Made by a program: the position numbers and the translations under genes. Shown here in pieces: positions 47,849 through 62,449 of a stretch of 64,000 bases of DNA. The notes below the pieces were generated by a model that saw only the letters and a list, made by a program, of their open reading frames with translations, ran no database searches and was not told the origin of the DNA. Origin of the DNA: Nocardia sp. BMG111209 (GTDB lineage: Bacteria; Actinomycetota; Actinomycetes; Mycobacteriales; Mycobacteriaceae); assembly GCF_000381925.1 (NCBI RefSeq), contig NZ_KB907307.1, positions 1,798,001 to 1,862,000 on the forward strand. Direction: 5' to 3'. Position 1 is the stretch's first letter. Each line of letters opens with the position of its first letter.

Positions 47849-48795
47849 TCGCTGGGGGCCAGGTGCAGGTGGCGGGCGAAGGCGGCCCGCAGGCCGGCGG
47901 CGGTGGCGAAACCGGACTGGGAGGCGACGCGATCGATGGTCAGATCCGTCAGTTCCAGCAGTTCCTGGGCCCGCCGCAGCCGTTCCCGGATGAGCCAGTC
48001 GCCGGGGGTGCGGCCGTAGACCTCGAGGAACCGGCGGGTGAGTTGCCGCTCGCTCAGGTGTGCGCGGGCCGCGAGGTCGCGCAACCGGATCGGCTCGTGC
48101 AGATGCGCGAGCGCCCAGTCGGTGATGTTGCTCAGGGGTGAGGCGGCCGCCGCGGGCAGTGGGCTGAGGATGTACTGCGCCTGGTCGGCGTCGCGATGCG
48201 GCGGGGTGACCATGCGCCGCGCGAGCGCGTTGGCGACCGCGGTCCCGTGATCCTGCCGGACGAGATCGATGCAGAGATCGATCGCGGCCGCGGTCCCGGC
48301 GGAGGTGTGCACCCGGTCGTCACTCGCGCTGATGACGGTTTCGTCGACGATCACCGCGGGAAAGCGGCGGCGCAGTTCGTCGGCGTGCATCCAGTGCGTG
48401 GTGGCACGGCGTCCATCGAGCAGACCGGCCTGCGCGACCACGAAGGCGCCGGAACACAGTGCGGCGATGCGCGCGCCCCGGGCGTGCGCCTCGGCGACCG
48501 CGGCGACGAGACCGGCCGGTTGCCGCTCGTGGACGTTGGTGCACGCGGGCACGATCACGGTGTCCGCGGTGATCAGGTCGTCGAGACCGAAGGCGGCGGG
48601 AGCGGCGAACCCACCGGCGATCACCGTCCCCGGCTCGGTCGCGCACAGCGCGAACTCGTACCAGGGGTCGGCGAGTTCGGGCCGCGCGACGCCGAACACC
48701 TCGCACGGCACGGCGAGCTCGAAGATGGGCGCTCCGGGCATAACCGCCACCGCGACCCGATGGGTGTCGGAATTCTTGCGCATGACGTCGATCAT
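47821..48795 (-). CDS. GlxA-type regulator (DJ-1/PfpI domain plus AraC HTH)
   Basis: A 324-residue two-domain regulator. Residues 12-170 form the DJ-1/PfpI-like domain (VAVMPGAPIFELAVPCEVFG; ALCSGAFVVAQAGLLDGRRATTHW), and residues 215-320 the AraC HTH (LRDLAARAHLSERQLTRRFL then IDRVASQSGFATAAGLRAAF). Such proteins control catabolic or stress genes in actinobacteria. ATG 48795 has aggacgag upstream; ATG 48783 is an alternative. It diverges from the APC permease gene (40 bp), which is its likely target. Confidence 0.9.
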   Translation of the reverse strand: MIDVMRKNSDTHRVAVAVMPGAPIFELAVPCEVFGVARPELADPWYEFALCATEPGTVIAGGFAAPAAFGLDDLITADTVIVPACTNVHERQPAGLVAAVAEAHARGARIAALCSGAFVVAQAGLLDGRRATTHWMHADELRRRFPAVIVDETVISASDDRVHTSAGTAAAIDLCIDLVRQDHGTAVANALARRMVTPPHRDADQAQYILSPLPAAAASPLSNITDWALAHLHEPIRLRDLAARAHLSERQLTRRFLEVYGRTPGDWLIRERLRRAQELLELTDLTIDRVASQSGFATAAGLRAAFARHLHLAPSDYRNTWRAA

Positions 48796-48835
48796 GACAC
48801 TCGTCCTGGGGCCGGAGCGAGACTGAGATGAGACG

Positions 48836-50119
48836 GTGACGACAACGAAACAGACATCCCCTCCGGCCGAAACGATCGGATTGGTCCAGGGCGTCGCACT
48901 GTACGTGTGCGCGATCCTCGGCGCCGGTGTTCTCGTATTCCCCGGGCAGGCAGCCTCGTTGGCCGGGCCCGCCTCGCTGATCTCCTGGGGGTTCAGCGCG
49001 CTGATGGGACTTCCGCTGGCGTTCACCTTCGCGGCGCTGGCCTCCCGATTCCCGGACGAGGGCGGCGTCGCGACGTTCGCGGCGCGCGCGTTCGGGCCGT
49101 CGGCGGGCGGGATCGCCGGGTGGTGGTACTTCATCGCCGGTTCGGTCGGGCAGACGATCGTGCCGCTGACCGCCGGATACTACGTCGCCGACGCGCTCGG
49201 CGCGGATCAGGCCTGGGCCCCCGCCATCGCGGCGGTGATCCTCGCGGCCGCGCTCGTCGCGAACCTCGTCGGGCTGCGCCTCGGCGCGCGGGTGCAGATC
49301 GGTCTCGCGGCCGGGGTCGCGGTGATCCTGCTGGCGGTGATCGCGGTCGCGGCGCCGCAGATCCGGACCAGCGAGCTGACCCCGTTCGCACCGCACGGGA
49401 TCAGCGGTATCGGACAGGCCGTGGTCGTGCTGTTCTTCGCCTTCGCCGGCTGGGAGGCGATCGCGCATCTGTCGGCGGAGTTCCGCGACGTCCGCCGCAA
49501 CCTGCCCCGGGCGACCGTGCTGACCATCCTGATCGTCAGCGTCCTCTACCTCGGCGTGGCGTTCGCCGTCGTCGGGACCGGCTCGTACGGCGCGCGGGCC
49601 CTGGACCGGATCTCGCTCGGGATCGTCATCCAGCACGGGCTCGGCGTCTCGGCGGTGACCGTCGTGGCCGTCGCCGCGGTCGTCATCTGCCTCGGCACCA
49701 CCAACGCGTTCGTCGCCTCGGTCTCGCGGCTGGGTTACGCCCTCGCCCGCGACGGCTGGGCGCCCCCGGTTCTGTCCCGCCAGAATCGGCACGGCGTACC
49801 GCATCTGGCGGTCCTCGCGGTCGGCGCGATCGGCGCCGGGGGGCTGATCGGTTCCGTACTGTTCGGCTGGGGAACCGACGACATCGTCTTCGTCCCGTCC
49901 GTGCTCGTGCTGGCCACCTATCTGCTGGGCGCGGCCGCGGCGGCCCGGCTGTTCCGCGGCCGGTTGCGGTTGCTCGCCGCCATCACGATCGCGCTGCTGT
50001 TGATCACGGTTCCCTTCGCCGGATGGCATCTGCTGCTGCCCGTGGCGATCGCCGCGGTGGTCGCCGCCGCCGGGGCCGCCACACGCGCCCGGACCCGGCC
50101 GGACGAGGCGCGACGATGA
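48836..50119 (+). CDS. APC-family amino acid permease
   Basis: A 427-residue protein with about 12 hydrophobic segments. TM1 carries GVALYVCAILGAGVLVFPGQ, with the GAG unwound-helix motif of the APC superfamily; FAFAGWEAIAHLSAEFRDVRRNLPRA corresponds to the TM6-TM7 region. It resembles the YjeH group, which exports hydrophobic amino acids. GTG 48836 is the only usable start. Located 700 bp before the N-N bond operon and after an activator-type regulator, it might export the product or import a precursor; this is inference. Confidence 0.86.
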   Translation: MTTTKQTSPPAETIGLVQGVALYVCAILGAGVLVFPGQAASLAGPASLISWGFSALMGLPLAFTFAALASRFPDEGGVATFAARAFGPSAGGIAGWWYFIAGSVGQTIVPLTAGYYVADALGADQAWAPAIAAVILAAALVANLVGLRLGARVQIGLAAGVAVILLAVIAVAAPQIRTSELTPFAPHGISGIGQAVVVLFFAFAGWEAIAHLSAEFRDVRRNLPRATVLTILIVSVLYLGVAFAVVGTGSYGARALDRISLGIVIQHGLGVSAVTVVAVAAVVICLGTTNAFVASVSRLGYALARDGWAPPVLSRQNRHGVPHLAVLAVGAIGAGGLIGSVLFGWGTDDIVFVPSVLVLATYLLGAAAAARLFRGRLRLLAAITIALLLITVPFAGWHLLLPVAIAAVVAAAGAATRARTRPDEARR

Positions 50120-50810: not shown

Positions 50811-52115
50811 ATGACCAATCCCAAGATTTACGACCTGATCGGCATAGGCTTCGGGCCCGCGAACATCGCCCTGGCCATCGCGCTGGAAGAGGATGCGGAT
50901 CCCGAACTGCGCGCGGTGTTCCTGGAGAAGTCACCGGCCCCGCAGTGGCAGGAGAACATGCTGCTCGGCGGCTCCGACATCCAGCATCATCCGGTGCGTG
51001 ACCTGGTCTCGCTGCGGAATCCGCGCAGCCGGTACTCGTTCATCAACTATCTGCACGAGAACCGGCGGCTGATCGAGCATCTCAACCTCCCCACCCCGTT
51101 CCCGCTGCGCACCGAGTACGCGGACTACGTGTCCTGGGTACGCAACACCCTGACCACCGAGGTCCGATACGGGACAGCGGTACTCGACATCGCCTTCGAC
51201 CCGGTCGCGGACCTCTACACGATCACCACGACCAGCGGGGAAGAGCTTCTCGCCCAGCAAATTTCGCTCGGCCCCGGCCGGAGTCCGCTCATCCCGGACC
51301 AATTCGCCGAACTGCTCGACACCCGGCGGCGGGTGGTGCATCTGACCGACTATCTGCCGGCGGTGCGCAGCTTCGACCCGCTGGCCGACGGCCGGATCGG
51401 CATCGTCGGGGGCAGTCAATCGGCCGTCGAGCTGGCACTGGATCTGCGCCACCGGCTCCCGTCGGTCCGCGTCGACATCCTCACGCGATCGTGGTCGCTG
51501 CGCGCCAAGGACCACAGCCCGTTCAGCGAAGAGGTCTACACCCCCGGGTTCACCGACTACTACCACGGCTCCTCGAAGGCCGCGCGCCGCCGGCTCGACC
51601 GGTTCACCCGGCCGACGAACTACTCCGCGGCCGATCTCGACGTCCTCGAACGCCTCTACGTGGACCTGTACGAGGACAAACTGAGCAACCGGATCCGAAC
51701 CCGGATCTACGGCGACACCGAGATCATCGCCGCCCGGCGCGCGAACGACACTGTCGCCCTTGCGATTCGCAACACGACCACCGGTCACCACGAGGAACTC
51801 GTCTTCGATCGGATCATCCTCGCGACCGGATTCCGCGATATGGGCGGCACGGCGGACAACGAGCACCACCACCCGCTGCTCGACGGCGTGCACCGGCAAC
51901 TGCGCGCGGACACCGACGGCGACCTGATCGTCGACCGCGACTACGGCGTCCGCCCGATCACCGGGACCGCGCCGATCTATCTCAACGGATTGTGCGAGAG
52001 CACCCACGGCATCGGCGATTCCGGCTCGTTCAGCTTGCTGAGCCTGCGCGCCGAGGTGATCGCCCGATCGATCATCGACTGCCGCGACCGGACCCGGATC
52101 ACCGTCACCGCCTAG
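50811..52115 (+). CDS. Amino-acid N-hydroxylase (SidA/IucD/PvdA family), copy 1
   Basis: A 434-residue flavin N-monooxygenase. The FAD loop DLIGIGFGPANIALA (residues 7-21), the substrate/FAD segment QWQENMLLGGSDIQHHPVRD, the NADPH loop IGIVGGSQSAVELALDL (about 197) and the closing ATGF and GIGDSGSFSLLSLRAEVI motifs are intact. The family hydroxylates the side-chain amine of lysine, ornithine or similar. In hydrazine-forming pathways an N-hydroxylated amine is the electrophile for N-N bond formation. It is the first gene of a nine-gene operon. Confidence 0.92.
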   Translation: MTNPKIYDLIGIGFGPANIALAIALEEDADPELRAVFLEKSPAPQWQENMLLGGSDIQHHPVRDLVSLRNPRSRYSFINYLHENRRLIEHLNLPTPFPLRTEYADYVSWVRNTLTTEVRYGTAVLDIAFDPVADLYTITTTSGEELLAQQISLGPGRSPLIPDQFAELLDTRRRVVHLTDYLPAVRSFDPLADGRIGIVGGSQSAVELALDLRHRLPSVRVDILTRSWSLRAKDHSPFSEEVYTPGFTDYYHGSSKAARRRLDRFTRPTNYSAADLDVLERLYVDLYEDKLSNRIRTRIYGDTEIIAARRANDTVALAIRNTTTGHHEELVFDRIILATGFRDMGGTADNEHHHPLLDGVHRQLRADTDGDLIVDRDYGVRPITGTAPIYLNGLCESTHGIGDSGSFSLLSLRAEVIARSIIDCRDRTRITVTA

Positions 52116-52154
52116 ATACCCGCAGGCGGGAAAGACAGATACAGGCAGGTATTC

Positions 52155-53546
52155 ATGACCACCATTCTCGATGCCTCGCATCACAACGACGTCGAACTGT
52201 TCGCCGCCCGCACCGTGCCGGGCCCGCGATCGGCGCACCTGCTGGCCGAGCAGGAACGGCAGGAGTCCAACGCTCGCACCTATCCCCGCCGGTTGCCGTT
52301 CGGCATCGCCTCCGCGCGCGGTTCGATCATCACCGATGTCGACGGGAACCACTACGTGGACCTGCTCGCCGGCGCCGGCGTGCTGGCACTGGGACATTCG
52401 CACCCCGAACTGGTCACGATCGCCCAGCGGCAGTTCGAACTGCTCGTGCACGGGCTCGACATGCCCACGCCGATCAAGGCCGAGTTCACCGGCAAACTGC
52501 TCCGCCGGATCCCCGGCTACGACGCCGAAGCGGCCAACTGGAAGGTCCATTTCTGCGGACCCACCGGCGCCAACGCCGTGGACGCGGCGATCAAGCTGGC
52601 CCGCATCGTCACCGGACGGCACGGCGTGGTCAGTTTCCAGGGCGGATTCCACGGCACCACCCACCTCACGATGGGCATCACCGGACTGCTGTCCCAGCGT
52701 TCGGGCATCGCCGGCATCGGTGACGGGGTGACCTTCCTGCCCTACAGCGACAGCCGCAACTATCCGGACCAGCGGCCCGAGGACGCGCGCTATCACACGA
52801 CCCTGATCGAGAGCCTGCTGACCGATCCCAACGGCGGCATCCCGGCGCCGGCGGCGATCATCCTGGAGATCGTGCAGGGCGAGGGCGGCGTCGTCCTCGG
52901 CGATCCGCATTTCCTCGCGACCGTGGCGGATCTCGCGCACCGGCTCGGCGCGCTGCTGATCATCGACGAGATCCAGACCGGATGCGGGCGCACCGGAACG
53001 TTCTTCGCCTACGAGCGGCACGGGATCCGCCCCGACATCGTGTGCCTGTCCAAGGCGCTGTCCGGGATCGGCACCCCGGTCTCGGTCCTGCTGTACCGCA
53101 GCGAGCACGACGTGTGGCGGCCCGGGACGCACACCGGCACGTTCCGCGGCAATCAGATCGCGTTCGCCGCCGGCAGCGCATTCCTCGACATCCTCGATCG
53201 GGACGGCATCCTCGACCACGTCGCGGCGATCGAGCGCACCGTCGCCGCGGTGCTGGGCCCGCTGCCCGATCTGTTCCCCCATGTGTACGAGGTCCGCGGG
53301 ATCGGGGCCATGTGGGGTGTCGAATTCGTCGCCGAGTCCGGCCGCCGCGATTCCGGCGGCCCGATCGCCCGCGCCGTGCAGGAACGGTGTGTGCACCGGG
53401 GTGTGGTGACCGAGGTCGGCGGCCGCAACGACAGCGTGCTGCGCCTGCTGCCCCCGCTGAACATCGACCTCGACCTGCTCACCGACGCCTGCACGGTCAT
53501 CGCGACGGCGGTCGACGAGGTCCTCACGGCGGGAGCGGTGCGATGA
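52155..53546 (+). CDS. Diaminobutyrate-2-oxoglutarate aminotransferase-like (class III)
   Basis: A 463-residue PLP enzyme. The family start SARGSIITDVDGNHYVDLLA, CGPTGANAVDAAIKLAR, LIIDEIQTGCGRTG (Asp271) and LSKALSG (PLP Lys300) are intact. The closest remembered group makes L-2,4-diaminobutyrate from aspartate semialdehyde (EctB/Dat). Placed between two N-hydroxylases, it may supply diaminobutyrate as the amine to be hydroxylated. The ATG has a gcaggt ribosome site; the stop overlaps the next start. Confidence 0.88.
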   Translation: MTTILDASHHNDVELFAARTVPGPRSAHLLAEQERQESNARTYPRRLPFGIASARGSIITDVDGNHYVDLLAGAGVLALGHSHPELVTIAQRQFELLVHGLDMPTPIKAEFTGKLLRRIPGYDAEAANWKVHFCGPTGANAVDAAIKLARIVTGRHGVVSFQGGFHGTTHLTMGITGLLSQRSGIAGIGDGVTFLPYSDSRNYPDQRPEDARYHTTLIESLLTDPNGGIPAPAAIILEIVQGEGGVVLGDPHFLATVADLAHRLGALLIIDEIQTGCGRTGTFFAYERHGIRPDIVCLSKALSGIGTPVSVLLYRSEHDVWRPGTHTGTFRGNQIAFAAGSAFLDILDRDGILDHVAAIERTVAAVLGPLPDLFPHVYEVRGIGAMWGVEFVAESGRRDSGGPIARAVQERCVHRGVVTEVGGRNDSVLRLLPPLNIDLDLLTDACTVIATAVDEVLTAGAVR

Positions 53547-54880
53547 CCGCGCCCGAGGGCACCGCCCCGGTGGTGTGCATCGGATACGGGCCCGCCGGAA
53601 TCGGATTGGCGGCCGCGCTCACCGATCTGAGTTACCAGCCGCACCGGGAGCCCCACGAGGGCGGCGTGGCGGGGCAGGCGGTGTATCTGGAACGGCAGGC
53701 CGAGGCCGCCTGGCAGCCCGAACTGATGATCGCGGGCACCGATATCCAGCACCACTACCTCCGGGATTTCGGCACCCCGCGCGATCCGCACACCCGATTC
53801 GGCTTCGTCAACTATCTGCACGCGAAGAATCGGTTCTACGAATTCACCGCGCGCAGTGGATATCCGGAGCGCGTCGAATGGGACGACTACTGCCGGTGGG
53901 TCGCCGAGCGGGTGGACGGTCTGCGGCACTTCGGCGCCACCGTCCGGGCCGTCCACCGGGACACCGCGGCGAACGGCGCGCGACCGGCGTACCGCGTCGA
54001 GTACCGCGACGAGGCCACGCGGCGGGACCACTCGATCGTCACGCCGGCCGTGGTCGTCGCGACCGGTTACGCACCGCACATTCCCGCGGAATTCGAGGTG
54101 GACGATCGGCGGGTGTTCCATTCCGACCGGTATCTGAGCGGCATCACCGCACTCGAGCCGCCGCGCTCGATCGCGGTCGTCGGCGCGGCGCAGACCGCGG
54201 GCGAGATCATTCTCGATCTGCGGCAACGCTTTCCGGACGCGGCGGTGCATTCCATCGTCCGCAACAACGGGTTCAGCATGTACGACCTGGGTCACTTCGT
54301 GAATCGGGCCTATTGGCCGCACGAGCGGGCCGCGTTCGCCGCCTACCCCGCCGAGATTCGCGCGGAGGTGTACGCCGGTCAGGCCCGGACCAACTACGCC
54401 GCCGTCGACCCGGACGTGTCGACGGCGCTGTACAACGACTGGTATCGCGGTCGGGTGCTCGGTGCGCAGCGCCTGCATCTGCACATCCGCAGCGCGTCGC
54501 GGATCATCGAGACCTCGCCCGCGGCGATCACACTCGACATCACCGACCGGTACACCGGCGGGCATCGGGACCGGATCGGCGTCGACGCGGTGATCCTGTG
54601 CACCGGGTACGTCCAGCCGCGGATTCCCGAGGTTCTGGCCCCGATCGCGGCCGGGTTCGCGGTCGACAGCGACGGTGAACCCGTCGTCGACCCGATCGGG
54701 CAGATCCGGTATCTCGACGGCGGTCACGAATCCGGGATCTATCTGCACGGCGTCGCCGAGCGGCAACTCGGCATCGGCAGCGCGGCATCGTTCAGCCTGC
54801 TCGCCGTGCGGTCCGGCGATATCGCCGAATCCCTGGTCACCGCCACGCGTCCGCTACCCACCGCCACCGCATCCGCATAA
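53543..54880 (+). CDS. SidA-family N-hydroxylase, divergent copy 2
   Basis: A 445-residue protein with the same architecture as the first gene but clearly diverged. The FAD loop is VVCIGYGPAGIGLA, the NADPH loop IAVVGAAQTAGEIILDLRQR, with AGTDIQHHYLRDFGTPRDP and ending GIGSAASFSLLAVRSGDI. Residues between 30 and 60 are longer than in copy 1. Its ATG overlaps the aminotransferase stop (ATGA), so it is translated with it. Two N-hydroxylases suggest two amines are hydroxylated or one is oxidised twice. Confidence 0.88.
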   Translation: MTAPEGTAPVVCIGYGPAGIGLAAALTDLSYQPHREPHEGGVAGQAVYLERQAEAAWQPELMIAGTDIQHHYLRDFGTPRDPHTRFGFVNYLHAKNRFYEFTARSGYPERVEWDDYCRWVAERVDGLRHFGATVRAVHRDTAANGARPAYRVEYRDEATRRDHSIVTPAVVVATGYAPHIPAEFEVDDRRVFHSDRYLSGITALEPPRSIAVVGAAQTAGEIILDLRQRFPDAAVHSIVRNNGFSMYDLGHFVNRAYWPHERAAFAAYPAEIRAEVYAGQARTNYAAVDPDVSTALYNDWYRGRVLGAQRLHLHIRSASRIIETSPAAITLDITDRYTGGHRDRIGVDAVILCTGYVQPRIPEVLAPIAAGFAVDSDGEPVVDPIGQIRYLDGGHESGIYLHGVAERQLGIGSAASFSLLAVRSGDIAESLVTATRPLPTATASA

Positions 54881-54907
54881 CGGACCACAGAGAGAGCAGA
54901 GACGACG

Positions 54908-55291
54908 ATGCTGGTATTCGACCTCGACGACCAACCGTGGGCCGAGGAGCACAGCTTCAACACCCTGTCCCGGCGACTGTTCCCGTGGGACAACCTCCGC
55001 GAAATCAATTGGGGCGGTTCGTGGGTGAAGGTCCGCCCCGGCGAGACCACCACCCCGCACTCGCACGACGAGAAGGAGATGTTCCTCATCGTCGAGGGTG
55101 CCGGGCAGTTCACCCACGGCACCGAACGGATAGATGCGCGGCCCGGCACCACCGCGATCATGACGCCCGGCGTGACCCATTCGATCACCAACACCGGATC
55201 CGGCGAGCTGATCTTCCTGGCCGTGTGGTGGACCGACGATCAGCATGTCCACGATCCCGCGCTGACCCCGCCGCCGGTGCAGCCGTCGTGA
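54908..55291 (+). CDS. Metal-binding cupin protein (hydrazine-synthetase cupin-like)
   Basis: A 127-residue single-domain cupin. The metal ligands of both cupin motifs are visible: His51, His53 and Glu57 (PHSHDEKEMF) and His91 (GVTHSI). In hydrazine synthetases such as Spb40 a zinc cupin domain rearranges an ester between an N-hydroxyamine and an amino acid into an N-N bond, and is fused to a MetRS-like domain. Here the cupin is a separate protein with the MetRS-like gene 1.75 kb downstream. Its stop overlaps the next start (GTGA). Confidence 0.85.
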   Translation: MLVFDLDDQPWAEEHSFNTLSRRLFPWDNLREINWGGSWVKVRPGETTTPHSHDEKEMFLIVEGAGQFTHGTERIDARPGTTAIMTPGVTHSITNTGSGELIFLAVWWTDDQHVHDPALTPPPVQPS

Positions 55292-56469
55292 CCGCCGGGG
55301 ACGGTGTCGCCGTGGCCGTCGTCGGCGCCGGCGTGATCGGCGCGAGTATCGCCCATCATCTCCAGGCCCAGCACATTCCGACGCTTCTGGTCGCCTGCGC
55401 CGATCCGCGCCACCGTGCCCGCGAGGCCAGCGCCAATTCGGGCGGGATCGTCCGGGCGGTCCACACCGCGCGACTGGAGACGGTGCTGACCGTCGGCTCG
55501 TCCCGGGCCTACCGCCGCATGGATATCGCGTCGGACGGGGCCGTCGCCTACACCGGCGCCGGATTCGTGTTCATCACCGACCGCGGTCACCGGCAGGCGT
55601 TGGCCGACCGGGTGGCCCTGCTGGATTCGCTGTCCTATCCCGCGGAACTGCTGGATTACGAACAGCTTTCCCGGCGCTGGCCCGAAATCGTCTGGCGCAC
55701 CGACGATCTCGGGCTGTTCGAACCCGCCTCCGGTTCGGTGGACGTGCGCGCGGTGGTCGGTGCCTTCCGGCAGGGCCTGTCCGCTCACGGCGGCACAGTG
55801 CTGGCCGAGACGGCCGTCTCGTTCACCCCGGCGGCCGGCGGCCGCTGGATTCTGACCACGCAGGAACGCAACTCGTATCGCGTCGGCGCGGTGGTGGTCG
55901 CGGCCGGCCGGCACAGCGCCGAGTTGCTACGCGAGTCCCGCGGCCACGACTTACCCCTGCACGCGGCCCGGATGGGTGTGGTGGAGCCGGCCCTCGGCGG
56001 CGGTGGCCCCGGCATCCCCGGCGGATTGTCGTTCATCGACGATGTCACCGGCGGCTACGCCATCTGCCGCGCGGATACGATCCTGATCGGCGCGAACGGC
56101 CGTGTCGCACCGGATGATTCGCACGACGACCTCACCGCGGCGGAACGCGAGGCGATCCGCGGGACCGTGAGCGTCCGGCTGCCGGCGGTCCGGGACGCCC
56201 CGGCCGCGGGCACCCGGGTCGGCGTCGACGCGATGACCGTCGACGGGCGGCCGATCGTCGAGCAGCTCGAGCCGGGCCTGTTCGTCTGCACCGGCTTCTC
56301 CGGCGGCGGCGCCAAGATCGCCCCGGAGATCGGCCGCCTGACCGCCCAGTGGCTGTCCACCGACCGCCGTCCCTCGATCCTGTCCGGCTACGCCCTCCCG
56401 CGCCCGGCATCCGACGACCGACCCGATCAGGACGATAACCATGACATCCGAGCGTTCTCGTATATCTGA
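55288..56469 (+). CDS. FAD-dependent oxidoreductase (DAO family)
   Basis: A 393-residue D-amino-acid-oxidase/glycine-oxidase-type flavoprotein. The dinucleotide loop VAVVGAGVIGASIAHHL is near residue 8, REASANSGGIVRAVH is the flavin contact region, and GVDAMTVDGRPIVEQLEPGLF, then CTGFSGGGAKIAPEIG close the fold. In known hydrazine pathways an FAD oxidase cleaves the hydrazine-linked amino acid intermediate to release the small hydrazine. It is coupled to the cupin gene by GTGA overlap and overlaps the next gene by 29 bp. Confidence 0.88.
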   Translation: MTAGDGVAVAVVGAGVIGASIAHHLQAQHIPTLLVACADPRHRAREASANSGGIVRAVHTARLETVLTVGSSRAYRRMDIASDGAVAYTGAGFVFITDRGHRQALADRVALLDSLSYPAELLDYEQLSRRWPEIVWRTDDLGLFEPASGSVDVRAVVGAFRQGLSAHGGTVLAETAVSFTPAAGGRWILTTQERNSYRVGAVVVAAGRHSAELLRESRGHDLPLHAARMGVVEPALGGGGPGIPGGLSFIDDVTGGYAICRADTILIGANGRVAPDDSHDDLTAAEREAIRGTVSVRLPAVRDAPAAGTRVGVDAMTVDGRPIVEQLEPGLFVCTGFSGGGAKIAPEIGRLTAQWLSTDRRPSILSGYALPRPASDDRPDQDDNHDIRAFSYI

Positions 56470-57022
56470 CACGATCAGGCAGATCATCCGCGCCGCGTAC
56501 GCCAAGGATCCGGCGACCAACACCGTCCTCGACGCGCTGTTCCATCCCGGGGTGCAGGCCGCGATGGCCCATCAGTTCGCCCACCGGCTCGACACCCGCG
56601 GGCAGCACGCGCTCGCCCGCCTGGTCGCGACGCTGGCCCGCATCGTCACCGGCCTCGACGTCCATCCGGCCGCCCGCATCGACCCGACCGTGTTCATCGA
56701 TCACGCGCTCGGTGTCGTGATCGGCGAGACCGCCACCATCGAACACGACGCGATGCTGTACCACCACGTCACCCTCGGTTCGATCGGATGGTGGAAGGAC
56801 CGGGAATTCGCGGTCCGCCATCCCACGATCGGCCCACACACGGTCCTCTGCGTCGGCTCCTCGGTGCTGGGACCGATCACCGTGGGCGCCAACGTCATCG
56901 TCGGCGCGCATGCCGTGGTCCTCGCGGACGTCCCCGACGACACCCATGTTCCGGCCGGCAGTGTCTGGGCCGCCCGGCAGCGGGACGCCGCGACGGCCCC
57001 GCACCTCCTGCGCACCCTCTGA
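56441..57022 (+). CDS. Serine O-acetyltransferase-like protein (CysE family)
   Basis: A 193-residue left-handed beta-helix acyltransferase. Motifs: HPAARIDPTVFIDHALGVVI with catalytic His region, HHVTLGSIGWWKDREFAVRH in the place of the HVTLGGTG loop, and PTIGPHTVLCVGSSVLGPIT, then VGANVIVGAHAVVLADVP. The usual TLGGTGK loop is altered, so substrate may differ from serine. It may make O-acetylserine, or acetylate a hydroxy amino intermediate of this pathway. The start overlaps the preceding gene. Confidence 0.85.
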   Translation: MTSERSRISDTIRQIIRAAYAKDPATNTVLDALFHPGVQAAMAHQFAHRLDTRGQHALARLVATLARIVTGLDVHPAARIDPTVFIDHALGVVIGETATIEHDAMLYHHVTLGSIGWWKDREFAVRHPTIGPHTVLCVGSSVLGPITVGANVIVGAHAVVLADVPDDTHVPAGSVWAARQRDAATAPHLLRTL

Positions 57023-57043
57023 ACGAGCCCGGAGATACTGATC

Positions 57044-58588
57044 ATGTCCAATTTCATCGTGACGGCCGCACCCCCCAACCCCAACGGCGACCTCCATCTC
57101 GGGCATCTCGCCGGACCGTTCCTGACCGCCGACATCGTGGCCCGCGCGCTGGCGCTGCGCGGTCACGCGGTCAGTCACGTCGGATACATCGACGAACATT
57201 CGTCGTACGTGGTCCGGCGCGCGCGTGAGCTGTCGACCGATCCCTACACGGCCGCAGCCGTTCTCGGCGATCGGATCGAGACGACCCTCACCCAGGCGAA
57301 TATGCGGCCCGCCACCGTCGCCCGGCCGCTGCGCGATCCGTCGCACGATCGCCGGGTGCACGAAGGCTTCACGACGCTGTGGGACGCCGGGCACATCACG
57401 GTCGATTCCGAGGCCCAGGTGTTCTCCTGCACGACCTGCTCGCGGCCGCTCTACGAATGCGAGATCCGGGGTATCTGCCCGTTCTGCGACGCCGCCTCGG
57501 ACGGCATCTACTGCGAACAGTGCGGCAACCCGCAGCTGCCCACCGGTCTGATCGATCCGCGGTGCACCCGTTGCGGCGGAACGGAAATCACCACGACGCG
57601 GCATCGCCGGCTGATCCTCGACATCGAACCGCTGCGGCCGCAGCTGCGGGAGATCCTCACCGCGGTGACGCCGCGCCCCCGCACGGTGGACTATCTGCAC
57701 GATCAGCTGTCCCGGCCGCTCGCGCCGGTCCCGATCAGCCGGCTGGGCAATTACGGTGTGTCCGTACCGCTTCCGGACTGGGAGGGGCATTTCCTGGACA
57801 CCTGGTTCAGCGGCGTCTTCGGCTACATCAACGCCGCGGACCTGGACAATCGGCGCCGGCGGCGGTTCGACGCGGCCAGCCCCTGGCAGGACGAACACGT
57901 CGACGTGGTCGAGGCGTTCGGATTCGACTGCTCGTTCTCGCACATCATCCTGTGGAATGCGGTGGCGCTGCTGTCGAAATGGCCGGTGCGCCTGAACTAT
58001 CTGAGCAACGAGTTCTATCAGCTCGACGGGCTCAAATTCTCCACCAGCCGCGGGCACGCGATCTGGGGCGCGGACTACCTGCCGACCACCTCGTCGGACA
58101 TCCTGCGCTTCTACATGGCCCTGACCGGGCCGGAAACCCGCGCGAGCTCGTTCAGCGAAAACGCGTACCAGGAATTCGAGGGCAGGTACCGGCACGCGAT
58201 CGGCGAACTGTTCCGCATCGCCACCGCCGACGCCGGTCCCGAGGCCACCGCCGACGTGCCGTCGCAGGTCGAGGCCGTCGTCGAACAGTGCGAGCAGGCG
58301 TACCGGCCCCACACGTTCAGCGCCAGGGCGGCCGCGACGGTCCTCACCGAGCACGTCATCGACGACGACACCCTGCGGCGCCAGCTGGAGACCGCCGGGC
58401 CCGATGCGCGCCGGGCCGCTTTCGAGGCGCTCGTCCGGGCCTTCCATCCGCTGTCGCCCTATTGGACGACGCAGCAACTGGTCCAGCTCGGCCGGGTGCC
58501 CTCGATCGATCTCGACGCGCTGGTGCGTCCCGCGACGGCGGCGACCACCGCGAGCCCGCACGATCCGGCGCGGACGCTCACCCTCTGA
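57044..58588 (+). CDS. Methionyl-tRNA-synthetase-like protein (hydrazine-synthetase MetRS part)
   Basis: A 514-residue class I synthetase relative. HLGH (residues 18-21) is the HIGH motif, four CxxC-like pairs between residues 128 and 187 form a zinc knuckle, and KFSTS (331-335) replaces KMSKS. It lacks the tRNA-binding C-terminal extension and is shorter than a typical housekeeping MetRS. In Spb40-type enzymes this domain adenylates an amino acid such as glycine and passes it to an N-hydroxyamine. It is therefore the likely activating partner of the separate cupin. The next gene starts 5 bp after its stop. Confidence 0.88.
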   Translation: MSNFIVTAAPPNPNGDLHLGHLAGPFLTADIVARALALRGHAVSHVGYIDEHSSYVVRRARELSTDPYTAAAVLGDRIETTLTQANMRPATVARPLRDPSHDRRVHEGFTTLWDAGHITVDSEAQVFSCTTCSRPLYECEIRGICPFCDAASDGIYCEQCGNPQLPTGLIDPRCTRCGGTEITTTRHRRLILDIEPLRPQLREILTAVTPRPRTVDYLHDQLSRPLAPVPISRLGNYGVSVPLPDWEGHFLDTWFSGVFGYINAADLDNRRRRRFDAASPWQDEHVDVVEAFGFDCSFSHIILWNAVALLSKWPVRLNYLSNEFYQLDGLKFSTSRGHAIWGADYLPTTSSDILRFYMALTGPETRASSFSENAYQEFEGRYRHAIGELFRIATADAGPEATADVPSQVEAVVEQCEQAYRPHTFSARAAATVLTEHVIDDDTLRRQLETAGPDARRAAFEALVRAFHPLSPYWTTQQLVQLGRVPSIDLDALVRPATAATTASPHDPARTLTL

Positions 58589-58593
58589 GTCCC

Positions 58594-59508
58594 GTGGGTA
58601 CGCCGGCGCCGGCACGTACTGCCGGGTTGTGGACGATCGTGATGTCGGTGCTGGGATCCGGCACGATCCTCGTAAGCCTGTGGGCGCCGGGACTTCCGGT
58701 GCCGGAGCGCACGGTGTTCGTTGTGCTGCTGGTGGTCTCGACGATCGGCGTGGCCGCGGGGTTCGCGCGGTGGTCCGGCCCCTGGGTACGGTATCCGGCG
58801 GTGCGGACCGGGCTCTACGTATTCGGGATCGCCGGTGGCACGCTGGCGCTCACCGCGGTCTCGGCACTGTTGATGTCCCGGGCCGGGGTTCCGCCGGTGA
58901 TCCGTTGCGCCACCATTGTTTCGGCGCTGGTGATCTTCGCCTGGGCCGAGATTCCGGTCGCCGTGATCGGCGCCGCGCTCGTGGTGGCGCTGGTGGCCGT
59001 CGCCGGCGCCGGCCTGTCGATCACCGATACCGTTCTCGGCGGTCCCGGCCCGCACCGAATTCTCCTGGCGATCTACTCGTGTCTGCCGATCTCGCTGACG
59101 GTCGTCGGCTGGGAACGCCTCGCCGCGGAACCGGTACCGAGACAACGGATCCTGCTCGGGGTGGGGGCGACCCTGGTCGTCACGCTCGTCGTGATCCTGG
59201 GCGGCGGGATGTCGGCGGCGGCACAGTGGCCGCATGCCATGCGGACGTCGGCCGCTGTGCTCGTCTCGGTCGTGCTCGCGAGTTACGCCGGTCGCAACCT
59301 CCACACCCTGGCGGGGCTGCTCGGGACGAGCGGCCACCGGCGAGCGAAAATGGCAACGGCCGCAGTGGGTTACACGGTTCTCGCACTGCTGCTGGTGGCA
59401 GCGGCGCCACGGGCCGTGCTGCTCCCCCTGGTATGCCCGGCCCTGGCCACCGCCTGCCTCTACCTTCCGGTGGCGATCGGAAGACCCGAAAGGATCGATG
59501 CCCAGTGA
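58594..59508 (+). CDS. Multi-pass membrane protein of unknown family
   Basis: A 304-residue protein with about nine hydrophobic segments and few charged residues. No family signature is recognised. It begins with GTG 58594, 5 bp after the MetRS-like gene, and ends in a GTGA overlap with the DUF3291 gene, so it is part of the operon. It could export the product or modify it at the membrane; there is no motif to decide. Confidence 0.75.
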   Translation: MGTPAPARTAGLWTIVMSVLGSGTILVSLWAPGLPVPERTVFVVLLVVSTIGVAAGFARWSGPWVRYPAVRTGLYVFGIAGGTLALTAVSALLMSRAGVPPVIRCATIVSALVIFAWAEIPVAVIGAALVVALVAVAGAGLSITDTVLGGPGPHRILLAIYSCLPISLTVVGWERLAAEPVPRQRILLGVGATLVVTLVVILGGGMSAAAQWPHAMRTSAAVLVSVVLASYAGRNLHTLAGLLGTSGHRRAKMATAAVGYTVLALLLVAAAPRAVLLPLVCPALATACLYLPVAIGRPERIDAQ

Positions 59509-60056
59509 CGGCCACCCGCGGCCACCATCTCGCGTTCACCACGTTCTTCGTGCTGCGAAAACCCTACGGGCATCCCGTGGTACGCGGATTCGAGGCGGCC
59601 GAACCGGCGATATTCGACCAGGCCGACGAATTCGACGGCTTCATCGGCAGGGCGAGATACGCGGATTCCGAACAGCTTCCACAGTCGGAGATCACCAACT
59701 TCGACCGGGATTGGGGCAGCTGGGGCGAATTCGCGGTGCCCGCGTTCCACCGGGAACCGGTCGCCCCCGGAATCGACCGCAGGGCTTCGACATTGAGCAT
59801 CTGGCGCGATGTCGACGCGGTCCGCGACTATGTGTACTCGGGCCGTCATCTCGACGCGCTGAAACGCCGGGACGAGTGGACCGATCCGGAGTCCGGCACA
59901 CCCAACCACGCCGCCTGGTGGATTCCGGCCGGGCACATTCCGCGCTGGTCCGACGCGGTCGCCCGCCTGGAGCGGCTGCACACCCACGGCCCCACCGTCG
60001 ATGCGTTCACCCTCCGGTCGCCGTTCCTCCCGGACGGCTCCGGCGCGCGGCGCTGA
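59505..60056 (+). CDS. DUF3291 family protein
   Basis: A 183-residue protein with the DUF3291 features: LSIWRDVDAVRDYVYSGRHL, DALKRRDEW, AAWWIPAGHIPRWSDAVARL and GPTVDAFTLRSPF. The family belongs to a ferredoxin-like dimeric fold related to small monooxygenases but has no established activity. It is the last gene of the operon, coupled by GTGA overlap, and ends 6 bp from the convergent thioesterase gene. Confidence 0.82.
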   Translation: MTATRGHHLAFTTFFVLRKPYGHPVVRGFEAAEPAIFDQADEFDGFIGRARYADSEQLPQSEITNFDRDWGSWGEFAVPAFHREPVAPGIDRRASTLSIWRDVDAVRDYVYSGRHLDALKRRDEWTDPESGTPNHAAWWIPAGHIPRWSDAVARLERLHTHGPTVDAFTLRSPFLPDGSGARR

Positions 60057-60062
60057 ACGCCG

Positions 60063-60815
60063 TCAGGTGAGGCGGGTGGCGATCAGGCGGGCCACCTCGG
60101 CGGGCCGGGTGTCGAGGTAGAAGTGGCCGCCCGGGAAGGTGGTCAGCTCGAATTCGCCGGTGGTGTGGGCGCGCCAGCGGTGCGCCTGTTCGACGGTGAC
60201 GGTGGGGTCGTCCTCGCCCAGCAGCACGGACACGGTGCAGCGCAACGGTTCTCCGGGGCGGTGCACGTAGGTTTCCACGGCCTCGTAGTCGCTGCGGACC
60301 GCGGGCAGGACCAGTTCCGCGAGGGCCGGTTCGGTCCGCAGGATCTCCACCGAGGCGGGATCGTCTGCCAGCCGGGCCAATTCGTCGATCAGGTCGTCGT
60401 CGGTGCCGCGGTGGACGCTGCCGGTGGCGGGCTCATCGGGGGCGAGGCGGCCGGAGGCGAACAGGGTGGTCACCTCGCGGCCCCGCGCCGCCAGCAGGCG
60501 GGCGGTCTCGAAGGCGATCGTCGCGCCCATACTGTGCCCGAACAGGGCCAGCCGCACCGGCGGCCAGGTCAGCAGGTCCGCGGTGATCCGCTCGGCCGTG
60601 GCGACCAGGCCCGGTTGCGGCGGATCGTCCAGCCGGTCCTGCCTTCCGGGGTACTGCACCGCGAATACGGCGGTGCCGGAATCGAATTCCCGGGCCAGCT
60701 CCCGGAAGGCGCCGATGGATCCGCCGCCGGGCGGGAAGCACACCAGCACCGTGCCGGGCTCTGCCGCGGAACGCAATTGCCGCAGCCACTCGGTTGCGGG
60801 TATGCGCCCCACCAT
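60063..60815 (-). CDS. Type II thioesterase (alpha/beta hydrolase)
   Basis: A 250-residue enzyme of the GrsT/TEII group. VLVCFPPGGGSIGAFRELAR, the nucleophile motif LFGHSMGATIAFE (Ser95), LLGEDDPTV (Asp) and PGGHFYLD (His) give a full catalytic triad. These proteins clear misloaded carrier proteins in NRPS/PKS pathways; none is visible in the window. ATG 60815 has a strong ggaggg site. It was probably once co-transcribed with the TetR gene now 1.7 kb away, since an insertion sequence begins 42 bp upstream. Confidence 0.9.
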   Translation of the reverse strand: MVGRIPATEWLRQLRSAAEPGTVLVCFPPGGGSIGAFRELAREFDSGTAVFAVQYPGRQDRLDDPPQPGLVATAERITADLLTWPPVRLALFGHSMGATIAFETARLLAARGREVTTLFASGRLAPDEPATGSVHRGTDDDLIDELARLADDPASVEILRTEPALAELVLPAVRSDYEAVETYVHRPGEPLRCTVSVLLGEDDPTVTVEQAHRWRAHTTGEFELTTFPGGHFYLDTRPAEVARLIATRLT

Positions 60816-60852
60816 ATTTCGCTCCCTCCACGCGCGGTTCCTCGCCGCAGAC

Positions 60853-60857
60853 CTTAG
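60853..60857. repeat. Target-site duplication CTTAG (left)
   Basis: CTTAG flanks the insertion on its left; the right copy is at 62522-62526. The identical 5 bp pair indicates a recent transposition that has not been rearranged. Confidence 0.85.
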
Positions 60858-60884
60858 CCTGAATCCACTGACGGGGGTTTCGTG

Positions 60885-60915
60885 CTGGTCCGCGCGCCTG
60901 CGGCGCGCGGACCAG
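60885..60915. terminator. Strong hairpin inside the IS
   Basis: Perfect 14 bp arms (starting CTGGTCCGCG and ending CGCGGACCAG) around a TGC loop, lying between the transposase stop and the IS end. There is no T-run. It may stop transcription in either direction and would then add to the polar effect on the thioesterase gene. Confidence 0.55.
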
Positions 60916-60997
60916 CGGGTTTCGGGCGTGGAGTAGCCGCTGGCCTGGCCAGCTTTTCCACGTGAGTCCTCGGTTCGGGCCCGTCGGGCGGGGATGG

Positions 60998-62449
60998 TCA
61001 GATGCTGTCGGGTTGTGGTGGTGTGTAACCGATTGTGTTGTGCCACAACGTGAGCCATGCGTCCGCCCAGGGCCAGCAGCGGGGCAGGTGCAGGATGGGA
61101 CGCCGTTGAGGGCGAGCGAGCCGGGCGGGGATGGTGATGATTTTGCGGCGCAGGGTCGATCCGCGGGCCCGGCCGAGTCGGCCACCGGCCAGTATTCCGG
61201 CGGTGCGCAGCAGGTTGTGGGCGATCGCGGCGCACAGGACCCAGGCGAAGTTGGCGCCGAATTTCCCGGACGGAATGTGAGCCAGTGGCCCGTCGATCAG
61301 GTCGGCGAACACGGTTTCGATGATGGCGTGTTTGCGGTGGGTGATGTCGGCATCGGCGACGGGCTCGGTGGAGTTGGTGAAGAACGGGTGATACCGCCAG
61401 ACCGGGAACAGGGCATCGGGGTATCGGGCGTCTTTCACCCGGCGCACGATCAGCCTCGCGGTGGTCCGGTCTTTCGTGGAAGCGAAAGCGGTATAAGAGA
61501 TTTCGGCGACCTCGGCGTCGGAGATCCACTCACCGGTATCGGGATCACGCACGGCACCGGGATACCGCACCGGAGTCCATTGGTCTTCGCCGATCGCGGT
61601 GATCGCGGCGTTGACCGCCGAATTCTTGGTCAGTACCAGCGAGAACTGTGCCCCGGCGCGCAACGCGGCGCACACGACTTTGCGGGTGCCGTATGCGGAG
61701 TCCCCACGCACCAGCACGATGCCGGTGGCGCGGGCGGCACGAGCGGTGCCGATCGCGGCGGTAACCATCGATGCGGCACCTTTGCCCGAGCCGGTCTTAC
61801 CTGCGCGTAGCCGTATCCCGGCGATCACCGGTGCCGCCAGGTCGGTGCTGATCGTGGTTGCCAGGGGTGAAAGTCCTTTGCGGAGAACCTTTTTCCCAGC
61901 AATCTTCGTGTGCCCGTACGACGCGCCCTGCTTCTGGTGGCCATAGACCGGGCGCAGCAGCGAATCGATATCGACGAAGGTCCGCACAGCCGCACCGGGC
62001 AACAGATCCGCGCGCGCGGTCAAGGCCAGCAGATGCTCGCGCATCACCGACTCCAACTGCTTGGCGTGACCGAATGTGAACTCCCGCAACAGAGTCCCGA
62101 CCGTCGAGGGCGCATACACGCCACTGAACAGCGTCTTGCACCCGCCGCTGCGCAGCAGACCGATATCGTCGATGCTGTCCGCACCCGCACACATCCCGGC
62201 GATCAACGTGGCCAGTTTCGGTGCCGGGTTCACCGACCCGGACTTGACTCGTGGCGCGTCGATGGCAATTTTCTCGGTCAACAGCCTGGTCAGACCCGTC
62301 TGCTCGGCCAGGGTCATCACCGGAACCAACCCCGCCACCGACACGAGGCCATCATCATCGAACCTCGCCGAGGACTCGGCGAACCTGTGGAACAATCGCA
62401 CTGAAAGTGTCTTTCGGAACTTGTCTTGGTTGTTGTGTGGTAACTCCAA
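60998..62449 (-). CDS. IS1380-family transposase
   Basis: A 483-residue DDE transposase. RTFVDIDSLLRPVYGHQKQG (Asp region), VRGDSAYGTRKVVCAALRAG (the second Asp in RGDSAYG) and HAIIETVFADLIDGPLAHIP (Glu in the conserved C-terminal region) are the family catalytic landmarks. It is full length, with ATG 62449 72 bp from the right IS end. Confidence 0.93.
   Translation of the reverse strand: MELPHNNQDKFRKTLSVRLFHRFAESSARFDDDGLVSVAGLVPVMTLAEQTGLTRLLTEKIAIDAPRVKSGSVNPAPKLATLIAGMCAGADSIDDIGLLRSGGCKTLFSGVYAPSTVGTLLREFTFGHAKQLESVMREHLLALTARADLLPGAAVRTFVDIDSLLRPVYGHQKQGASYGHTKIAGKKVLRKGLSPLATTISTDLAAPVIAGIRLRAGKTGSGKGAASMVTAAIGTARAARATGIVLVRGDSAYGTRKVVCAALRAGAQFSLVLTKNSAVNAAITAIGEDQWTPVRYPGAVRDPDTGEWISDAEVAEISYTAFASTKDRTTARLIVRRVKDARYPDALFPVWRYHPFFTNSTEPVADADITHRKHAIIETVFADLIDGPLAHIPSGKFGANFAWVLCAAIAHNLLRTAGILAGGRLGRARGSTLRRKIITIPARLARPQRRPILHLPRCWPWADAWLTLWHNTIGYTPPQPDSI

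Follow-up and report, generated by a model that had tools for sequence, protein, structure and literature searches.

A nine-gene Nocardia operon predicted to build an N-N bonded metabolite from N4-hydroxy-diaminobutyrate

We analyzed a 64,000-nucleotide stretch of the Nocardia sp. BMG111209 genome (9.14 Mb in five contigs), positions 1,798,001 to 1,862,000 of contig NZ_KB907307.1, hereafter the window. Its positions 50811-60056 carry a candidate hydrazine (N-N bond) biosynthetic operon, described in an original prediction, made from the sequence alone, as nine coupled genes. All nine open reading frames (ORFs) were found, co-directional on the plus strand and tightly spaced, with stop-to-start distances, in order, of +39, -4, +27, -4, -29, +21, +5 and -4 bases. 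With junctions so close to overlapping, the arrangement is as in one transcription unit.

Families were assigned by Pfam and NCBIfam searches of the ORF products, and solved relatives were sought by PDB sequence search. The first gene (50811-52115) encodes NMO1, a SidA/PvdA-type N-hydroxylase of 434 amino acids (aa; PF13434, E = 1.6e-85) predicted to act on N4 of diaminobutyrate. It is followed by DABA-AT (52155-53546, 463 aa), a class III aminotransferase that its nearest NCBIfam models place with diaminobutyrate--2-oxoglutarate transaminases; by NMO2 (53543-54880, 445 aa; PF13434, E = 8e-73), a second SidA-type N-hydroxylase of a lineage of its own, with a predicted role in later N-oxidation; and by a standalone cupin (54908-55291, 127 aa; Cupin_2, E = 3.6e-15), the predicted catalyst of a zinc-dependent, N-N bond-forming rearrangement. 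DAO (55288-56469, 393 aa, GTG start; PF01266, E = 7.9e-40) is an FAD amine/amino-acid oxidase of the sarcosine-oxidase type, with the monomeric sarcosine oxidases 9u3f and 1el5 as solved relatives. Next come a CysE-like hexapeptide acetyltransferase (56441-57022, 193 aa; TIGR01172, 158.8 bits) with intact serine acetyltransferase motifs and an amino-acid-activating protein resembling methionyl-tRNA synthetase (MetRS; 57044-58588, 514 aa; MetRS catalytic domain PF09334, E = 3.2e-56), a predicted hydrazine synthetase partner. The last two genes encode a membrane protein (58594-59508, 304 aa) and a DUF3291 protein (59505-60056, 183 aa; PF11695, E = 1.7e-34). The family labels given in the original prediction, from the two PF13434 proteins to the membrane and DUF3291 proteins, agree with these assignments, and no nonribosomal peptide synthetase (NRPS) gene is among the nine, as it had stated.

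The MetRS-like protein is separate from ordinary MetRS, and the first refuting condition set in the original prediction is thereby not borne out. In a tree of 61 sequences, from which the near-duplicates or repeats L035, L046, L048, L085, L079 and L081 were omitted, it falls among 55 sequences set apart from six housekeeping MetRS with an ultrafast bootstrap of 99. The HIGH/KMSKS-type ATP-binding motifs are kept, as HLGH and KFSTS. The anticodon-binding domain PF19303 was found in both housekeeping controls and in neither the operon protein nor its homologue from Rhodococcus jostii RHA1 (locus L073); a fused protein from Mesorhizobium stayed below the threshold, at 20.7 of 23.5 bits. The greater part of the PF09334 model is matched by three genes in the genome, namely the operon gene, a gene at C1:2564131 and a gene at C4:543346 that scores like housekeeping MetRS. 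The RHA1 protein belongs to the group of 55, and we take it to be the tested partner of the cupin RHS1; the two are active on N6-hydroxy-lysine and Glu (PMC8664883).

Within the group of 55, the operon protein belongs to a branch with a characteristic set of residues. Twelve columns, selected for separating the branch, each keep one residue in no fewer than 28 of the 29 branch rows (which hold three same-contig pairs, L025/P0078, L028/P0020 and L029/P0031), a residue shared by at most one of the 26 other non-housekeeping rows. They include N12 (T in all 26 others), Y48 (G in 24), S53 (Q in 26) and C296 (N in 25), as well as T253, S299 and W304. Judged by motif position, some of the twelve presumably lie near the amino-acid site of MetRS. 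The branch-specific columns thus point away from the amino acids of the other branches sampled, and we predict that this branch uses a different one; the columns do not name which.

The cupin retains the metal-site positions of the characterized enzyme. RHS1 was located at L073:3212-3580, and its residues 63, 65, 69 and 103 are D, H, E and H, in agreement with PMC8664883. The putative ligands of the operon cupin, H51, H53, E57 and H91, align to these four residues. In an alignment of 24 rows, which counts two loci twice (L054/L066 and L036/L067), no row lacks the Glu or the last His; the first position is His in 21 rows and Asp in three, and the second is His in 21. The metal-site Glu is termed invariant in the cupins investigated in PMC8664883, where cupin and MetRS-like parts are also said to occur occasionally as standalone enzymes. 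Cupin, MetRS-like and hydroxylase genes recur together across the related loci.

Three of 150 genomes of the genus, a count that includes the source of the window, have the MetRS-like protein at E <= 1e-80. Nocardia sp. alder85J keeps the nine-gene order whole (59-88% identity, tblastn), and Nocardia alni has eight of the nine proteins in order (46-83% identity, tblastn), with no tblastn match to the DUF3291 protein within a 20-kb stretch. Since the same order recurs in both, the arrangement is not a chance one. Nocardia alni ncl2 was isolated from a root nodule of Alnus glutinosa (PMC8783487), and alder also appears in the strain designation of the other nocardial carrier.

Of 392 genomes treated as Streptomyces, 56 had MetRS-like matches at E <= 1e-50, nine of them strong (E <= 2.1e-105; next-best 1.3e-72). 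The loci of these nine were examined as 20-kb stretches (15 kb for L060); of the approximately 50 weaker matches, 21 were fetched as loci, seven of those also as longer stretches. DAO, CysE and MetRS-like genes are adjacent in all nine strong loci, each of which also has an NMO1 homologue and a cupin. A CysE-like gene directly upstream of the MetRS-like gene was seen in 3/150 nocardial and 9/392 Streptomyces genomes. The order NMO1, DABA-AT, NMO2, cupin, DAO, CysE, MetRS-like is common to the window, both nocardial relatives, L059 and L061; L062, L063 and L065 have the same order minus the transaminase between the hydroxylases. In L060 and L064 a P450 lies between cupin and DAO and NMO2 is absent, and in L058 the series cupin, DAO, CysE, MetRS-like is followed by an alpha/beta hydrolase, a DUF3291 protein, an ATP-grasp ligase and NMO1.

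The two hydroxylases are separate lineages, the NMO2 clade comprising nine sequences with a bootstrap of 100. The best solved relative of NMO1 is the PvdA-type L-ornithine 5-monooxygenase 3s5w (242.6 bits), and that of NMO2 is 5cqf, an L-lysine 6-monooxygenase. NMO1 is present in all three nocardial loci as well as the nine Streptomyces ones; the NMO2 lineage is present in the three nocardial loci and in six of the nine. Because both persist in two genera, we favor two oxidation steps, and from the P450 that replaces NMO2 in two loci we surmise that the substrate of NMO2 is the coupled product. No other gene of the genome matches PF13434 strongly (next, 2e-13). Presumably a nocobactin-type lysine hydroxylase would be expected in Nocardia; no separate one was seen among these matches.

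Gene content also bears on which diamine is hydroxylated. The best models for DABA-AT are diaminobutyrate transaminases (NF005393, 439.4 of 671 bits; TIGR00709, 397.5 of 401.6). Genes of the dat type, above the TIGR00709 cut-off, lie between the hydroxylases in L057, L059 and L061, and EctB-type genes above the TIGR02407 cut-off are found in L058, L063, L064 and L065, so that seven of the nine Streptomyces branch loci hold a diaminobutyrate transaminase above a curated cut-off. An EctC query gave no match in either the window or the related loci. That transaminases of two subfamilies were recruited speaks for the use of diaminobutyrate, which we consider the probable hydroxylated partner; the transaminases of the window and related loci thus support the earlier suggestion of diaminobutyrate instead of lysine.

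Serine acetyltransferases with solved structures align with the CysE-like protein. KDP, IDH, RHP and GS-x-GWW are kept in 15/15 branch sequences; we take the Asp of KDP, the Asp-His of IDH and the Arg-His of RHP to be catalytic and serine-binding. A CysE query (E <= 1e-3) found no match in 34 further stretches from 26 separate loci. Streptomyces loci of other branches account for 21 short stretches, extending only about 1.5 kb either side, and for 7 long ones, which come from loci among the 21; the genome's own second locus gave two more stretches, and plasmid loci four. Three fusions of CysE to the MetRS-like protein (P0107, P0110 and P0114) were seen among the best 120 of 363 homologues; they occupy two distinct regions of the MetRS-like branch. 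Because the motifs are intact and such fusions occur, we propose serine or O-acetylserine as the second coupling partner, tentatively and at somewhat less than even probability. No second gene of the genome matches TIGR01172 at E <= 1e-20, so the operon copy could also be its only source of O-acetylserine; in none of the seven genomes searched does any match pass the curated cut-off of this model.

Taken together, gene content, sequence families, conserved active-site positions and conserved linkage are best explained by an operon that probably joins N4-hydroxy-diaminobutyrate to a second amino acid, likely serine or O-acetylserine, in an N-N bonded metabolite. A hydrazine-forming core is very probably present, and for this core the hydrazine interpretation of the original prediction is supported. 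The individual steps follow from family chemistry. The transaminase would supply L-2,4-diaminobutyrate, and NMO1 would hydroxylate its N4. The CysE-like enzyme would form O-acetylserine, or acetylate the serine part after coupling. The MetRS-like protein would adenylate serine or O-acetylserine with ATP and give an ester on the hydroxylamine oxygen, which the cupin would rearrange to the N-N bond. DAO may then cleave a C-N bond beside the hydrazine, like Spb39 or Apy10, NMO2 may further oxidize the hydrazine product, and the membrane protein may export it. A more specific version, in which the branch is built for an amino acid already bearing a leaving group, is rather unlikely: the CysE-like enzyme would hand O-acetylserine to the MetRS-like protein, to which it is fused in some relatives, the cupin would join it to N4-hydroxy-diaminobutyrate, NMO2 would oxidize the product to an azo or azoxy compound, and loss of acetate would leave a reactive, dehydroalanine-type azoxy amino acid. 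The branch would then be a tRNA-free counterpart of the valanimycin pathway, with a SidA-type flavoenzyme acting on the N-N bond.

Several observations weigh against this pathway or parts of it. Three branch cupins (L057, L060 and L064) have Asn at the second ligand position; the best solved match of the operon cupin is plu4264 (4mv2, E = 5.3e-12), ahead of RHS1 (5uqp, E = 7.8e-5), and a pairwise tblastn of the RHA1 locus with the operon cupin did not find RHS1. The original assignment of the cupin to N-N bond formation is supported in part, by metal-site positions in the multiple alignment and co-occurrence with MetRS-like and hydroxylase genes; overall similarity to RHS1 is weak. Ultrafast bootstrap support for the MetRS-like branch is 63 alone and reaches 97 together with L075, a protein from a Xenorhabdus plasmid, and the choice of pocket columns for their separating power also counts here. 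In L057, which otherwise shares the gene order, the cupin lies on the opposite strand approximately 2 kb beyond the MetRS-like gene. As to diaminobutyrate, DABA-AT scores just under the dat cut-off, no diaminobutyrate transaminase was seen in the stretches of L060 (at a contig end) and L062, and NMO1 belongs to an ornithine-type group, among many database proteins named lysine or ornithine hydroxylases, so its sequence does not fix diaminobutyrate as the substrate. The CysE-like protein is below the curated TIGR01172 cut-off of 210.65 bits, and no enzyme known to consume O-acetylserine is among the operon genes.

The alternative closest to our reading keeps the hydrazine and changes the second amino acid to Ala, Gly or another ordinary residue, with the CysE-like enzyme acting late, for example in a protective N-acetylation of the hydrazine. 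Apy9 indeed couples Ala to N4-hydroxy-diaminobutyrate (PMC11705231), and acylation of a hydrazine is exemplified by the GNAT enzyme DobB, which succinylates hydrazinoacetic acid (PMC13061610). Moreover, L066, a locus of another branch, has a DUF3291 gene, a fused cupin-MetRS, DAO, an EctB-type transaminase and a hydroxylase 50% identical to NMO1, yet no CysE. On the other hand, an early shared substrate explains the CysE-MetRS fusions and the strict adjacency of the two genes better than a late CysE step does, the pocket signature is unlike that of the other sampled branches, and the serine acetyltransferase motifs are intact. We consider this alternative possible, if on balance doubtful.

Explanations without a hydrazine fare worse. 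Siderophore clusters often contain SidA-type hydroxylases and diaminobutyrate transaminases, and NMO1 resembles PvdA, so the genes could be read as a hydroxamate siderophore operon in which two hydroxylases and an acetyltransferase yield N-acyl-N-hydroxy diamines. This is very improbable: the genome has no match to an IucA/IucC synthetase, the nine genes include no NRPS, the acetyltransferase is CysE-like rather than GNAT, and such a pathway offers no role for the cupin/MetRS-like pair. That the MetRS-like protein is a spare methionyl-tRNA synthetase, serving for example in self-resistance beside unrelated neighbors, would suit its best NCBIfam models, which are methionine--tRNA ligases, all matched below their cut-offs. 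The tree, the absent anticodon domain and the conserved linkage with cupin and hydroxylase, together with the housekeeping-type MetRS elsewhere in the genome, leave this scarcely credible. Least of all do we credit an ectoine-like pathway, even though a transaminase, an acetyltransferase and a cupin are the same three enzyme kinds as EctB, EctA and EctC: the cupin does not match Ectoine_synth (PF06339), the genome's matches to that model lie elsewhere (C2:500168 and C1:2647806), and the EctC query was negative as stated above.

The remaining operon genes and the flanks add the following. The membrane protein, with nine hydrophobic segments by hydropathy and an uncertain start codon, is a predicted transporter. 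It had no family match in the Pfam and NCBIfam searches and is weakly similar (E 6e-9 to 7e-6, composition correction off) to membrane proteins of 359-382 aa encoded after the MetRS-like gene in three Streptomyces loci, themselves lacking a Pfam match where tested. The DUF3291 protein is predicted to be a dimeric alpha-beta barrel, a loose fit only: its structure model has a pLDDT of 66.9 and loose ABM-like fold matches. DUF3291 genes are scarce: the 13 genomes counted, selected for carrying the loci compared here, have from 0 to 3 each (one split match counted once), and five sit in operons compared here (window, alder85J, L058, L062 and L066). Upstream of the operon, Pfam matches identify a DJ-1/AraC-type regulator (47821-49134, minus strand; its true start is probably shorter than the ORF) and a divergent amino acid permease (48836-50119, plus strand). 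The pair possibly belongs to the operon unit; it is found upstream of the operon in alder85J (86 and 91% identity) and at its downstream end in N. alni (46 and 52%), and L066 has a 408-aa gene without a Pfam match that is weakly similar to the permease. Beyond the operon, a thioesterase-domain gene and an insertion sequence (IS) transposase (DDE_Tnp_1_4) at 60063-62446, minus strand, may mark its boundary.

Other MetRS-like genes were also encountered. L075, from plasmid pXT29 of Xenorhabdus sp. TCT-1, is sister to the branch and shares part of its pocket signature; the gene has a GNAT gene and an adenylation-domain gene in its vicinity, and its stretch gave no match to the CysE query or to the operon cupin. 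In Escherichia, 186 plasmid records have a MetRS-like tblastn match below 60% identity. PDB entry 9l8v, titled methionine-tRNA ligase and bearing a KFST motif, is a better match to the operon protein than classical MetRS; it and the next-ranked 9vq4 may be hydrazine-synthetase-like. The gene at C1:2564131 (L002, L026 and L027) forms with a cupin gene a second standalone pair in the Nocardia genome, adjoining an NRPS gene (condensation, AMP-binding and carrier domains), a pyridoxal-phosphate-dependent decarboxylase and a P450, and this locus is likely another hydrazine synthetase cluster.

Enzymes that make N-N bonds are few and are sought as catalysts. From a hydrazine synthetase branch whose pocket is fixed and different, and which keeps both a CysE-like companion throughout and a second conserved hydroxylase, the family would gain a new amino acid partner and, probably, a new kind of oxidation following the coupling; one screen of homologues supplied only a lysine-derived hydroxylamine (PMC8664883). 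The products of small Nocardia operons without NRPS or polyketide synthase genes are open to direct search. The reaction type, standalone cupin and MetRS-like proteins, and the use of diaminobutyrate are each already known separately, so the "unusual composition" of the original prediction holds for CysE and the second hydroxylase and not for the separate cupin and MetRS proteins or diaminobutyrate-based hydrazine formation. We found no account of the CysE-linked, two-hydroxylase branch with its own pocket in the literature searched, and regard it as new on that ground.

Among known systems, the Spb38/Spb40/Spb39 set of s56-p1, with which the operon was originally compared, shares hydroxylase, MetRS-like and cupin modules with it, as do Tri28, PyrN and DobE, and Spb39 is of the DAO family. 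The likeness is incomplete: Spb40 is a fused cupin-MetRS, whereas here DAO and CysE lie between the two separate genes, and by their descriptions the enzymes of this group are fused didomain proteins that join a hydroxylated lysine to Gly or Glu (PMC11705231, PMC8664883 and PMC13061610). Albofungin biosynthesis has separate MetRS-like (Afn8) and cupin (Afn9) genes and a hydroxylase (Afn18), but within a polyketide cluster and, as described, for a hypothesized free hydrazine (PMC11705231). In valanimycin biosynthesis a serine-hydroxylamine ester is converted to a hydrazine and on to azo and azoxy forms, a functional analogy only, as that pathway relies on seryl-tRNA, the membrane protein VlmO and the diiron enzyme VlmB and has no cupin/MetRS pair (PMC11705231). 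In the RHS1 system of R. jostii RHA1 plasmid pRHL1, too, the cupin and the MetRS-like protein are separate and accompany a SidA-type hydroxylase (PMC8664883), and the operon cupin conserves the metal-site positions and catalytic Glu of RHS1. That system differs in its specificity for Glu and N6-hydroxy-lysine (PMC8664883), in the 29% identity of its MetRS-like protein to ours and in the 13.3-kb RHA1 stretch, which has one hydroxylase and no match to CysE, DAO or the diaminobutyrate transaminase. In the actinopyridazinone (apy) pathway, Apy11 hydroxylates diaminobutyrate and Apy9, described as restricted to Ala, joins the product to that amino acid (PMC11705231). Although L066, inferred from gene order only to be an apy cluster, gave no CysE or second hydroxylase and differs from the operon in the pocket residues of L054/L066, this system and the operon have in common the DUF3291 and diaminobutyrate transaminase genes of L066 and, according to PMC11705231, a DAO-family oxidase and N4-hydroxy-diaminobutyrate as the hydroxylated partner, which in the operon is the predicted one.

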